Assembly (NCBI GenBank): GCA_963924555.1
Contig: OZ004586.1
Span: 6,592,501-6,656,500 of the forward strand
Direction: 5' to 3'
Source of the DNA: Crambe crambe
Taxonomy: Eukaryota > Porifera > Demospongiae > Poecilosclerida > Crambeidae
DNA length: 64,000 nucleotides
In this document: piece by piece, positions 44,439 through 49,185 of the stretch
Layout of the letters: the number at the start of each line of letters is the position of its first letter
Numbering within the stretch: the first letter of the stretch is position 1
The notes under the pieces: model-generated
What the model was told of the DNA's origin: nothing
The model's database searches: none
Seen by the model: only the letters and a program-made list of their open reading frames with translations
Translations under genes and position numbers: made by a program

Positions 44439-44447
44439 CCCGGTACC
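44439..44447. repeat. left target-site duplication (9 bp)
   Basis: CCCGGTACC immediately precedes the left terminal inverted repeat. An identical copy follows the right one at 49098-49106. Confidence 0.85.
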
Positions 44448-44472
44448 CAGAGGAGGTTGCGCACGCGTCATC
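44448..44472 (+). repeat. left terminal inverted repeat
   Basis: Begins CAGAGGAGGTTGCGCACGCG. Matches 49073-49097 in inverse orientation with one mismatch (C/T at position 13). Confidence 0.88.
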
Positions 44473-44538
44473 TGTTCTCACGTGCACTATGCGTAAATTC
44501 AACCTAATCCAACCTAGCTACCTAGATCTCAACCAGTG

Positions 44539-47500
44539 ATGGAAAAACGTATCAGGAGTACTCCAACTTTCAATACTCCTGTACGACCCCACAAAAGGAG
44601 ACCTCTAAGAGAGCTAGTTCAGGTAGAGGGGCTCGACCTTCCTCGAACAAGACTTTATTCTGAACATAACAGCATCAGTACCAAAGGATCAAGCTCATGG
44701 AGTCAGGAGGAGATCAAAGCTCTGCTTCAATTTGTTCTTCTCCATTCTGATGGTCTCTCTTGGCCCACTCATCATAATATGGCTATATGGAATGCTGCTG
44801 GATCTTTTATCAAAATGAAGCTGGGGACTGAACACTGCAGATCAGGTGAGGAGATTAGTTACTATAGTTAGTTCTGCCTGGATTGTCCTGTGTTTGGGTG
44901 CATCACCTGCTGTGTACCTACAGGTAATTCTTGTCGCTACAAAGTTGTAGGCTGGTTGAAAAAAATGGTTTCCAAGTCCTAAAGATGCGGAAGAAATCTA
45001 TCTACGTATACAACAAACGACAGGCATTGCACAGTCAGTGTGCTCTGGATCTCACGTTCACAGGGAGACTCAAACTGAAGGTATAAATTTGGAAGCCTTA
45101 TCATTCGACTTTTCTCAATTATGCAAGAGAGATTTTGGCTTAGAGGTTCCCAACGATTTTCTACTCTATGCCACTGCAGCAATGTGTCAACTTACTGATT
45201 CTGGCCGTTCAAATGTATTATACAACTTAGCAAAGGGTATTGGCAGTAAACGTGAAGATAAGGATGACTCACGATTTCCCACAAAGCGAATGCCCATGGG
45301 ACTAATTGAGTATTCTGCCAATTTTTTTGTAGCTGAAGACATTAATCAGGTTTATTTAACTGAATTAGTACCCTAGAATTGCATATAACTATATTTTAAT
45401 TGCATAGGTTCCAAAGTGTCCCCAAGACTATCGATCATGGCAACAAACTATGTACTGTCAGTTTGGACAAAAGTGGGCAAAACTTCATCATGGGCCCATG
45501 TGGAGTGTGTCACAGCTTCAGGGTAATCAGCGAACAATAATGATGGTAATAATATTTTATTCTGGCTGCATATGGGTAGAAATTGAATATCATCCTGTCT
45601 TTAAATAGCTTAATTGAATGGATGATTTCTCAAACATGCTTTGATGAAATTGTCCCAAACTTCTGTTCTAATCAATGTGTCTATATTTGATTTCTACCTG
45701 TGACTGTAATTGTGTATTTCAGGCTCTCCCAAATATTCCAGCTCTTTCTGAAAGCACCATCCGACGTGATATAGCTAGTAGTGGTATCTCTATGGATGCA
45801 AAAATTCAGGTAGCTATATTGTATAATTATGTGAATGTCCCTCCTGATTCTTAATTTCTATAATTATGTAGGAATCAGTTCTAGATGAAGCAGCACGCTC
45901 CCATCCAAATTCTTGGTGGTGGATAAAAGCAGATGGGTGTGATCTTGTGAGCGGTCTGGGTGAATCTATCAGTGGCAAATGGAGTGGTGATGTGAACTTG
46001 AAAGAAGGAGTTTTAGACAAGTTGTATATGGAGTATAAAGCAAGGCTAGATTTTGTGGCAGGATTCGGTCTTGGAGAGAGGAGTGATGATGCAATATTTC
46101 AGCAGGATCTTGGTGATATTAAGCAGCATTTAATGGATGATATCAATTTCATTACTTCTGGTGAGCATATGGTGCAATCTCAACATAGATCTTAGCTAGC
46201 TACTTTTTATATATTTTTTGCATGTAGTACTTTGTAAAGTAAATGATGAATATGAGAAGAAGCAAGAAGAAGGAAAGCAAGGAAAGGAGATGTTTGGGTT
46301 AGCTTGGGACATAAAGGAACTCACAGACCTGAATGAAGAGGGAAGACAGATTATCGTTGACTGTTCTACCCTTGGAGACAGGCTTTCTGACATTAATTAT
46401 GACAGAATTTCCAACAATTTGGCTTCTCGTTGTCAACATATTCGAGAGCGTATTCTATCATTTGTGAAGAGGACAGTGAAGTACAGACGTACAGCAGCTA
46501 CCCATGTCTTAGTGGTGATGATCAGCCCTGAGGAGCGTAATTCAAAACCGTATGCATTAACCATTCAATGTATTGCATACAAGAGCATTAAGGACTCTGA
46601 AATTCGGGATATCTGCAATAATGTTGTGAAAAAGATGACTTTGAGGGAAATGAAAGTTGCAGGTTAGTTTGCTATTATGGATGATTATTAAGTGAATAAT
46701 ATTTTTACAGGATTTTGTACTAATGGAGAATGGAATAGCTTACGCTCTAAGGGTAACACTCGACCATTATCCATTTTTGAAATACGGTCAAGAGCACGGA
46801 ATTATTGTAGTCGTCTTTCGCTTAAAAAAATGTTGGGAATGTTAACACCAGAACGTAAGCTGATACCAGCATTATTGCTATGTGTATGGTTATGTTTACT
46901 ATGATATTGCAGAAGGAGAAGATGGAATTTTAAGAGCTGCAGTTCCAAATCCTGCTGTTGGAGAAAAATTGCTACAGGAAATATCGACATGGATGGAGGA
47001 AGGTTGCACAATGGAAGATGTCGTACTTCGACTCCGGTTAAGAACAGTACCCAATGGTTATGAACCTCATAACTGGTGTGAAGGTAGCTAACATTTTAAA
47101 ATTAATGTATTATTTTTGATTATAGCCACTTATTTTTCAGATAGATCGGAGACATTTTCTGAAAAGTTAAAATCCATTTTAGCTCAATTGGTATATGTAC
47201 GTCAAATTGAAGAATGGGAGGCCAAAGGTGTGCCATTCAAGACTCATCTTCACGTTCCTGAATGTCACCCACTTACTGGAAAACTTTTCTGTGAGAGAGA
47301 AGATGAAGGTCATGTTTTCAAGGTATAATTATGATAATAAGCCCCAACTATAATGATGATTTTGTGTGTGTAGAGAATAGCAAATAGTTTGCGACGAGGA
47401 GCTGACAAAGATATAAGGTTGGAGAAATTTGTTGAAGCACTGAAGGAACCTGAAACTGGACTGACATATCCTGCCCTTACTGGAGTTAGGAAACAATCTG

Positions 47501-48034
47501 TTGAGGATGTCGAAAGATTATTTGGTGATGGGGTAATCAAATTTATGAAGAAAAAAGGTTATCAACCTGAAGCTAAGTATTTGCAGACAGTACGAAATTG
47601 GAGACAAGCAGTTGATGAAAGAGGACTACCTGATGCTACACGTCAGAAGTTTAGTATGGAACTTCTAGATTTTATTGTTAAAGATCTTATTCCTTGGTGC
47701 TCAGATGGAAATAGAGATTATCGCTTGTTGGAAGTTAATCGGTAAGCTAGCTTTCATTGGATGCCCCCTCATTGTAATGCTGTAATAGCTAGTAGTTATA
47801 ACTTTTTTGTTTTGTTTTGTTAGACCACTTAACAATGTTCGAGGATTAACAAGGGAAACACTAATAGCTCTAGCTGCTGATATTGAAACAAGGGTTAAAC
47901 GAAGTGAATTTCTCCGAGAACAAGGACTACCAGCAGAGCACCCACGCTCAAGCACTACAGATGATGTAGAATGCTTTTTTAGTGTACTTCGTGATACTGT
48001 GGGAAAAGATTTTACATCAAACATTTTAGAATGA
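44539..48034 (+). CDS. putative transposase, 11 exons, one homopolymer frameshift
   Basis: Exons: 44539-44845, 44924-45349, 45408-45545, 45723-45809, 45872-46160, 46228-46662, 46711-46854, 46913-47083, 47141-47322, 47374-47741, 47824-48034. All joins are GT-AG and in phase. The one lesion is an A7 run (44959-44965) in exon 2: one A too many shifts the frame between WLKK and FPSPKDAEE. Without that base the product is about 918 residues. Residues about 50-110 look like a Myb/SANT-type DNA-binding domain (SSWSQEEIKALLQFVLLH, CRSGNSCRYKVVGWLKK). Mid-protein WWWIKADGCDLVSGLGES and SGKWSGDVNL give candidate acidic residues, and the C-terminus has STTDDVECFFSVLRD, resembling the last acidic block of some DDE-type transposases. 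Position inside inverted repeats supports a transposase role; the catalytic assignment is inference. The stop follows soon after VGKDFTSN, so the C-terminus may be slightly short. Confidence 0.75.
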
Positions 48035-48114
48035 TTATCAAACAAATTGAATCAAACATTTTGTGTAAATGAATGCATCATCAAACAAACAAATCATGCC
48101 AAAAAATCAATATG

Positions 48115-49026
48115 CTAAAATGAACTACTGCATCGTACAACTTCTTTAGGCCATTCTCCTAGTTTTGAAATTTTTATTCCGCAGTACCATCCAGCTCCTG
48201 AACGACTCCAGTGTGTAATAAATCGTATCCACTCAAATTTAATGGATAATATTTTTTTTGAATCTATAGCTTCATGCACACTATTTAAGGCTTCCTTGGC
48301 AACATAGCCAATTAATTCCCAATCATTTTTTAGCTTGCAGTCAAAGGCAATTGCACGAGAATCCTTAGGATTTTTGGGTTCTTTTCTTAACATAACACCT
48401 ACAGATTCTTCTTTTTTCAATTTCTGAGCAGCTTCAGCCAATATTTCTTGAGACCGAACAGTTTTGGTTGCACCCATACATTTGAAGATTACTGAATGAG
48501 TTAAAAGTGATGTATTTAAATCAGCATCGTTATCTTCACCACTGCTCTCTCCAATACTTTCATCACTCATATTGCCAGTACTCTCCTGTTCAATATCTTC
48601 TGCTGATTCCTCCCATGTCCATTTCCATATTACAAATACTTTTTTCTCATAGAAAATCTTGTCACCAATTGGAATACAATGATCAAATTCATCTGGATCA
48701 ATAACAAATGCATTGGTGTATCCACTGCATAACTTAAGCAGTGCAGGAAAAGATCTTTTTAGATTTGGAGTGTCCCTTATATAGCCATCATAATATCTGC
48801 AGTCACGATCGTCCAAGCCCTGAAACTTGACTTCTCTCAAGTTAGCAGAAAAAACAGGGAAACTTGGTACAGTATACCTAATACTAGAAGCTCCTACATT
48901 CAAGATAGTTATGAACGTATGGTCATCCAACCTTTCAGAGCAATCCTCGCAAACGCTTCTTTTGCTTCCATCATAAGTCGCCATCTGTGCTGTTGCTGTG
49001 TTGCTGCGCACTATATCGTACATCAT
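48115..49026 (-). CDS. HIRAN-domain protein of the two-gene transposon
   Basis: Intronless, 303 residues from the first ATG (49026). A second in-frame ATG (MATYDGSKRSVCEDC, 48984) may be the real start. The N-terminal half (about 20-135) is an unrecognised domain with CEDC and several aromatic residues. Residues 139-170 are acidic and serine-rich. Residues about 178-265 match the HIRAN pattern: VIFKCMG, SVGVMLRKEPKNPKDSRAIA and WELIGYVAKEA. HIRAN domains (HLTF, Rad5) bind DNA ends with a free 3'-OH. In this setting it may recognise transposon or target ends, or a repair intermediate (inference). It has no helicase or nuclease motif. It converges on the transposase gene and its start is about 70 bases from the right terminus. 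Confidence 0.72.
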   Translation of the reverse strand: MMYDIVRSNTATAQMATYDGSKRSVCEDCSERLDDHTFITILNVGASSIRYTVPSFPVFSANLREVKFQGLDDRDCRYYDGYIRDTPNLKRSFPALLKLCSGYTNAFVIDPDEFDHCIPIGDKIFYEKKVFVIWKWTWEESAEDIEQESTGNMSDESIGESSGEDNDADLNTSLLTHSVIFKCMGATKTVRSQEILAEAAQKLKKEESVGVMLRKEPKNPKDSRAIAFDCKLKNDWELIGYVAKEALNSVHEAIDSKKILSIKFEWIRFITHWSRSGAGWYCGIKISKLGEWPKEVVRCSSSF

Positions 49027-49072
49027 GTCCTCGCGGCCTGCGCCGCGCCTGGAATGTAAATATCACATGACT

Positions 49073-49097
49073 GATGACGCGTGCACAACCTCCTCTG
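49073..49097 (-). repeat. right terminal inverted repeat
   Basis: Reads GATGACGCGTGCACAACCTC + CTCTG on the plus strand, the complement of 44448-44472 with one mismatch. Confidence 0.88.
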
Positions 49098-49106
49098 CCC
49101 GGTACC
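49098..49106. repeat. right target-site duplication (9 bp)
   Basis: CCCGGTACC, identical to 44439-44447. Confidence 0.85.
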
Positions 49107-49119
49107 CAGGACCCTCCAA

Positions 49120-49185
49120 TAGTCTGGCGGCGCCGACCCTTTACCTCCTTTTTCTTGGGGGCGGGGGGACGGCGCCGCCAGACTA
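49120..49185. mobile_element. 66-bp hairpin MITE with 16-bp perfect ends and 9-bp duplication
   Basis: TAGTCTGGCGGCGCCG at the left is the exact complement of CGGCGCCGCCAGACTA at the right. ACCCTCCAA flanks both sides (49111-49119 and 49186-49194). The 34-bp centre is GC/pyrimidine-rich and non-coding. It lies 22 bases outside the two-gene transposon and shares its 9-bp duplication length but not its terminal sequence. Confidence 0.85.

Follow-up and report, generated by a model that had tools for sequence, protein, structure and literature searches.

A stretch of 64,000 nucleotides from the sponge Crambe crambe (GCA_963924555.1, contig OZ004586.1, positions 6,592,501 to 6,656,500, forward strand; hereafter the window) contains a cut-and-paste DNA transposon with two convergent genes, one encoding a spliced transposase and the other a HIRAN-domain protein. 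Most probably, it is a defective copy of a two-gene transposon group that is related to, yet distinct from, the P-element superfamily, this distinctness being judged against Pfam, the P elements of the same genome and a limited literature. The features of the locus are, in window coordinates:

44448-49097: element, a cut-and-paste DNA transposon
44439..44447, no strand: left target-site duplication (TSD), CCCGGTACC, read from the sequence
49098..49106, no strand: right TSD, CCCGGTACC, read from the sequence
44448..44475, + strand: left terminal inverted repeat, CAGAGGAGGTTGCGCACGCGTCATCTGT, read from the sequence
49070..49097, - strand: right terminal inverted repeat, 26/28 complementary to the left arm, read from the sequence
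44539..44845, + strand: transposase exon 1, putative Myb/SANT-like region (splice borders; PF13837 below cut-off in homologue C17)
44924..45349, + strand: transposase exon 2 (spliced model), frameshift at an A-run near 44957
45408..45545, + strand: transposase exon 3 (spliced model)
45723..45809, + strand: transposase exon 4 (spliced model)
45872..46160, + strand: transposase exon 5, with the predicted first catalytic Asp (WWIKADG, codon 45932-45934), mapped by motif to P D230
46228..46662, + strand: transposase exon 6, an insert specific to the lineage between the first two catalytic positions, followed by RNase H strands (ATHVLVVMIS..KPYA)
46711..46854, + strand: transposase exon 7, catalytic position 2 as Asn (46722-46724), then a conserved Glu (46728-46730)
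46913..47083, + strand: transposase exon 8 (spliced model)
47141..47322, + strand: transposase exon 9, EDEGHVFKRIA motif, matched by eye to DxPHLxK..RN of P
47374..47741, + strand: transposase exon 10 (spliced model)
47824..48034, + strand: transposase exon 11, truncated on its 3' side by the deletion at 48015/48016; putative catalytic Glu of TTDDVE at 47969-47971
48115..48984, - strand: HIRAN-domain protein, 289 residues, one exon, facing the transposase gene; the C-terminal 134 residues hold the HIRAN domain

The first-pass annotation, made from the letters of the window, had described 25-base inverted repeats with one mismatch and a perfect 9-bp flanking duplication, and both descriptions hold. 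The repeats match at 24 of 25 bases, and at 26 of 28 when the arms are extended, while CCCGGTACC, searched for on both strands, occurs in the window only at the two element flanks. A scan for 9-bp repeats with at most one mismatch around inverted CAG ends gave this duplication as its single hit at the locus. With up to three mismatches, the end pattern occurs at five places in the 143-Mb genome (reversed control, 0). Two of these are the ends of the window element, two belong to a 472-bp derivative on C3, and the fifth is an end of a C3 copy with 98% identity to the window element. For the window insertion no empty site was found in its own genome, the flanks matching only themselves and a neighbouring repeat among the matches listed. 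A GC-rich hairpin (TAGTCTGGCGGCGCCGACCC..., 20-nt arms, 95%) lies at 49120-49185, beginning 14 bases past the right duplication. As part of it matches at least 44 further genome stretches, it is probably a separate short repeat.

The 11 exons have GT-AG borders and fuse into one long frame except for one frameshift, which agrees with the spliced 11-exon transposase described earlier. However, the 98%-identical C3 copy, itself broken and without its left end, carries about 390 bp, including a twelfth exon, that are absent from the window at 48015/48016. Therefore, the 11-exon gene is a remnant of a gene of at least 12 exons. The window transposase gene is broken by the frameshift and the loss of its last exon, and the copy would thus be movable only with an enzyme supplied from elsewhere. 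The SANT-like N-terminus that had also been proposed is at most suggested by a sub-threshold match. PF13837 (Myb/SANT) was detected with an E-value of 8e-4, below the cut-off, in one of five members (C17), and exon 1 of the window has no Pfam match at E ≤ 1. The N-termini in these scans and in those for THAP are homology-guided gene models.

The first-pass annotation had named other copies as a check, and the same genome does contain further elements that combine inverted ends and both genes with 9-bp duplications. Transposase matches were found at at least 18 loci and at least three weaker ones, and one further locus has a HIRAN match only. All of these lists are lower bounds, and about 20 related loci are known. 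Both genes are present and convergent in 11/11 modelled loci, which were picked by HIRAN hits and built with a home-made spliced aligner. Starting from the transposase hits, a HIRAN match is listed within about 5 kb at 11 of the 18 loci. Six two-gene elements, including that of the window, retain both ends, and four of these have perfect and differing 9-bp duplications. The five elements outside the window are:

C10:7542070-7547759: two-gene element with both ends, perfect 9-bp duplication
C3:4623111-4628793: two-gene element with both ends, perfect 9-bp duplication
C6:6759089-6764690 (C6a): two-gene element with both ends, perfect 9-bp duplication GGGCAAATT
C17:6336030-6341138: two-gene element with both ends, no duplication
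C6:7824535-7831894 (C6b): two-gene element with both ends, no duplication

The termini begin with CAGAGGAGGT in five of the six elements and with CAGGG in the sixth, C6a. Over 5.7 kb, the C10 and C3 elements share 99.7% identity; they have 109-bp inverted ends and lie at separate sites with differing TSDs (TACGTACTG and GATATGAGG), so this lineage moved recently. A comparison of the window and C17 transposases gave a proportion of nonsynonymous differences (pN) of 0.40 and of synonymous differences (pS) of 0.74; this figure rests on that one pair, as C10a-C6c and C6b-C9b (misaligned, rearranged) and close pairs (few changes) were left out. The C6b element, at 7.4 kb with identical 61-bp ends, is about 2 kb longer than its relatives, possibly through a nested insertion or recombination between copies.

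Short derivatives of the element give a second view of the duplication. The pattern CAGAGGAGGTNNNNCA occurs 122 times in the genome compared to 46 times for its reversed control. All facing pairs shorter than 500 bp among the matches listed were taken as derivatives (n=19), and nine of them on C14 with a common flank were counted once, leaving 11 independent insertions with the terminus CAGAGGAGGT. A perfect 9-bp TSD flanks eight of these, one has 8/9 and one 7/9 matching positions, and one has none; the perfect duplications fit 9 bp, neither 8 nor 10 bp. The 472-bp derivative on C3 has its own perfect 9-mer, CACCCATAT. When the flanks of the C14 derivative are joined through a single CTCATGCCC, the resulting sequence is present nine times without a mismatch and once with three mismatches in the same region, and six of the nine perfect matches sit about 2 kb before a filled copy. 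These are empty sites, precise loss being less likely. The 9-mer is therefore the target sequence duplicated on insertion. The nine C14 copies, each of about 102 bp, are spaced 35 to 128 kb apart with their common flank over C14:2083399-2575025, a repeatedly duplicated region.

Where the first-pass annotation could not name a superfamily, the transposase can now, on the basis of profile comparisons, be placed as a remote relative of the P-element/THAP9 transposase. PF21787, which represents the N-terminal RNase H half of TNP-type transposases, matches residues 496-565 of the C17 protein with 29.9 bits (cut-off 24.6) and is matched at E ≤ 1 by three of five members, with C10a at 15.0 bits remaining below the cut-off. 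Using hhalign, the family was compared with a profile of four ordinary P open reading frames (ORFs) of the same genome, resulting in a score of 43.2 (E 3e-4) and an alignment that spans ATH..PYA..[D/N]GE against ATH..PYA..DGA. The reversed profile scored 25.5, and 59 of 60 column shuffles scored at most 26.7. The profile of the four local P ORFs in turn matches the solved P transposase 6p5a with an E-value of 4.6e-7, via the LDEMK/FDEMK and DGA/SDLGTGN motifs. With P and THAP9 the group has in common a recognisable RNase H-like catalytic domain, the motif order, inverted ends and internally deleted derivatives. Three acidic motifs, KADG, SGD and DDVE, had been proposed as catalytic. By motif alignment, KADG and the Glu of DDVE correspond to P catalytic positions 1 and 3, whereas SGD is not position 2; this position aligns instead with an [N/D]GE motif at 46722-46730. 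Ordinary P elements are abundant in this genome, with 151 exon-level PF21787 matches that are presumably mostly theirs. One such copy, C9:1805139-1810087, measures 4.9 kb; its 34-bp ends begin CATAGATAT, and it is flanked by a 7-bp direct repeat.

Searches of contigs beyond this genome gave no confirmed relatives. Among viral contigs, 54 pattern places were obtained for the P-like transposase and 110 for the local P ORFs, none of which was confirmed, and the same holds for 22 places of the P-like transposase in bacterial and archaeal contigs. An NCBIfam scan returned unrelated names only. Some coral proteins presumably carry a similar C-terminal motif.

The convergent gene was annotated earlier as encoding a HIRAN-domain protein, and Pfam bears this out. 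The window protein scores 25.6 bits against PF08797 at full length and 27.3 bits for its C-terminal part, above the curated cut-off of 24.7, and four of five partner proteins match PF08797 at E ≤ 0.1. A structure model of the 134-residue HIRAN part is of fairly good confidence, with a mean predicted local distance difference test (pLDDT) score of 79.8, compared to 44.9 for the full-length model, which gave no usable PDB match. A prenyltransferase, the sole PDB sequence hit of the HIRAN part (E 0.0038), was taken as chance. The domain is shared with HLTF and Rad5 by Pfam (PF08797). In contrast to these proteins, the HIRAN protein of the element is small, stand-alone and transposon-encoded, with no helicase or RING part recognised among its 289 residues. 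The HIRAN domain of HLTF binds single-stranded DNA and fork-like junctions, and recognition of 3' ends is reported (PMC4666394, in part). By analogy with this binding, the protein might therefore act at the exposed ends or junctions of a transposition intermediate. A limited literature search, covering HIRAN in transposons, relatives of P, superfamilies with 9-bp duplications or of other kinds and HIRAN function, gave no description of a HIRAN partner or of a P-like/HIRAN group among the matches listed, one HIRAN query having probably matched other words beginning with 'hiran'. Genome-wide, 53 HIRAN-domain matches at E ≤ 0.01 were found, mostly distant from a P-like transposase. Among them are C20:4919381, C16:5887508 and C5:4469640, the last having copies on C9 and C16 that score the same; three HIRAN matches have identical scores and stops, as expected of repeat copies. 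There may be further HIRAN-carrying elements besides the P-like group.

The second catalytic position sets the group apart. Among the 13 readable copies, 12 have Asn at position 2, as do seven of eight lineages (own grouping), and only C17 has Asp. The Glu two residues further on is present in all but one of the 13, a decayed copy that has Lys instead. Of the D-D-E of P, the first Asp and the final Glu are kept by motif alignment, and position 2 departs from it. According to one explanation, the Asn-type transposases are inactive, and an Asp-type enzyme, for instance that of the C17 lineage, mobilises their elements in trans. That C17 alone keeps the Asp, in a gene model without stop or frameshift, fits this, and the explanation has a real, if somewhat less than even, chance of being right. 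On the other hand, four of the seven Asn lineages are 45-50% identical to C17, Gly-Glu follows the Asn in all copies but one decayed copy, the most recently moved pair (C10/C3) is of the Asn type, and the C17 ends diverge from those of C10/C3 after ten bases. Because diverged lineages share the Asn and a recently moved pair carries it, a relocated carboxylate is somewhat more likely than dead enzymes. A further step would be to regard the group as a separate superfamily sister to P, in which the second metal-binding carboxylate has shifted from Asp to the Glu two residues downstream and a dedicated HIRAN protein serves the 3' ends. This proposal is tentative and, on balance, rather unlikely.

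The group might also fall within the P superfamily as an ordinary member, the 9-bp duplications and a SANT in place of a THAP domain being minor variation. This is rather unlikely, even if the catalytic-domain family is shared by Pfam and profile comparison and the order of the motifs D1, D2, DxxHxxK and DxxExFF looks alike by eye. The P element makes 8-bp duplications and has 31-bp ends, the catalytic residues D230/D303/E531 and a GTP (guanosine triphosphate)-binding insertion (PMC7776569, in part), and the zebrafish P element likewise makes an 8-bp duplication (PMC10983969, in part). The window group duplicates 9 bp compared to 8 bp for P and 7 bp in the one local P copy with CATAGATAT ends, and its termini are CAGAGGAGGT instead of CAT... 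According to the Repbase rule, stated for non-autonomous elements, termini are alike over the first 11 positions (PMC4455052, in part); here, these read CAGAGGAGGTT in the window group against CATAGATATAT in one local P element. Catalytic positions 1 and 2 are 221-228 residues apart in five members compared to 102-104 in four local P ORFs, with the roughly 120 extra residues sitting after the GDVDL strand in the one pair compared. No THAP model matched at E ≤ 1 in five members, four of them with an N-terminus, nor in exon 1 of the window. Together with the Asn at position 2 and the HIRAN partner gene, the group thus departs from several defining features of P, and it is therefore not filed as a member. 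Position 2 and the Glu are separated by 328-336 residues without a Pfam match, which may or may not hold a GTP-binding insertion domain.

A 9-bp duplication is typical of Mutator, as in maize Mu (PMC2774946, in part), and the element might accordingly belong to Mutator or to another superfamily with this duplication length, which is however very unlikely. The Pfam scans at E ≤ 5 (two spliced proteins) and at E ≤ 1 (five members) gave only PF21787, the sub-threshold Myb/SANT match and noise, so the transposase is unrelated to that of Mutator-like elements in these scans. Zisupton, Kyakuja and Dileera (KDZ) elements are DDE transposons as well and can include a gene for an additional enzyme (in fungi TET/JBP; PMC12730594, in part), and in this respect are similar to the window group. 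However, their duplications measure 7-8 bp instead of 9 bp, and the transposase has no Pfam match to KDZ. Mutator, hAT, KDZ and Merlin were rejected, as none of their models matched. Finally, a host gene pair between chance inverted repeats or a domesticated pair, although in keeping with multi-exon genes under purifying selection, can practically be dismissed and is refuted for the family as a whole by some 20 scattered loci, near-identical copies with different TSDs, broken copies, derivatives with family ends and empty sites.

Several observations nevertheless weigh against a two-gene group that is related to P. Seven of the 18 transposase loci are without a listed HIRAN match, their transposase matches being partial only. 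Two of the six elements with both ends, C17 and C6b, lack a TSD, and one of them, C17, is at the same time the only copy with the canonical Asp and the only member known to exceed the PF21787 cut-off. The C6a ends are rich in G, with only 11 of 14 positions matching. The hhalign probability of the match to local P elements is only 38.6%, and one of the 60 shuffles scored 133, in a profile-edge alignment with zero posterior sum that was judged an artefact. The TTDDVEcFF motif pairs with QDPLENFF of the local P elements, but 3 of 100 shuffles score equally high, and the mapping of the Glu therefore rests on motif order. A PDB sequence search gave no hit for the C17 transposase and three chance-level hits for the family profile. 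For the model of the HIRAN part, the best PDB match is yeast Rad5, which carries a HIRAN domain, at a non-significant E-value of 0.15.

A possible course of transposition can be outlined. The transposase would bind the element ends via its N-terminal SANT-like domain and cut with an RNase H-like domain split by two insertions, in which the near-invariant Glu may, in most lineages, replace the second catalytic Asp that is now Asn. The freed 3' ends would be joined to target phosphates 9 bp apart, after which host repair would fill in the gaps. The HIRAN protein is probably an accessory factor that either binds 3' single strands or junctions arising in the reaction or brings the element to forks.

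PMC7776569 (in part) describes the GTP-binding insertion domain and the use of GTP as unique to the P transposase. With its different stagger, its changed catalytic position and its own HIRAN protein, a distant relative of P would offer a point of comparison for what the P machinery needs, and would place the HIRAN domain inside a mobile element.

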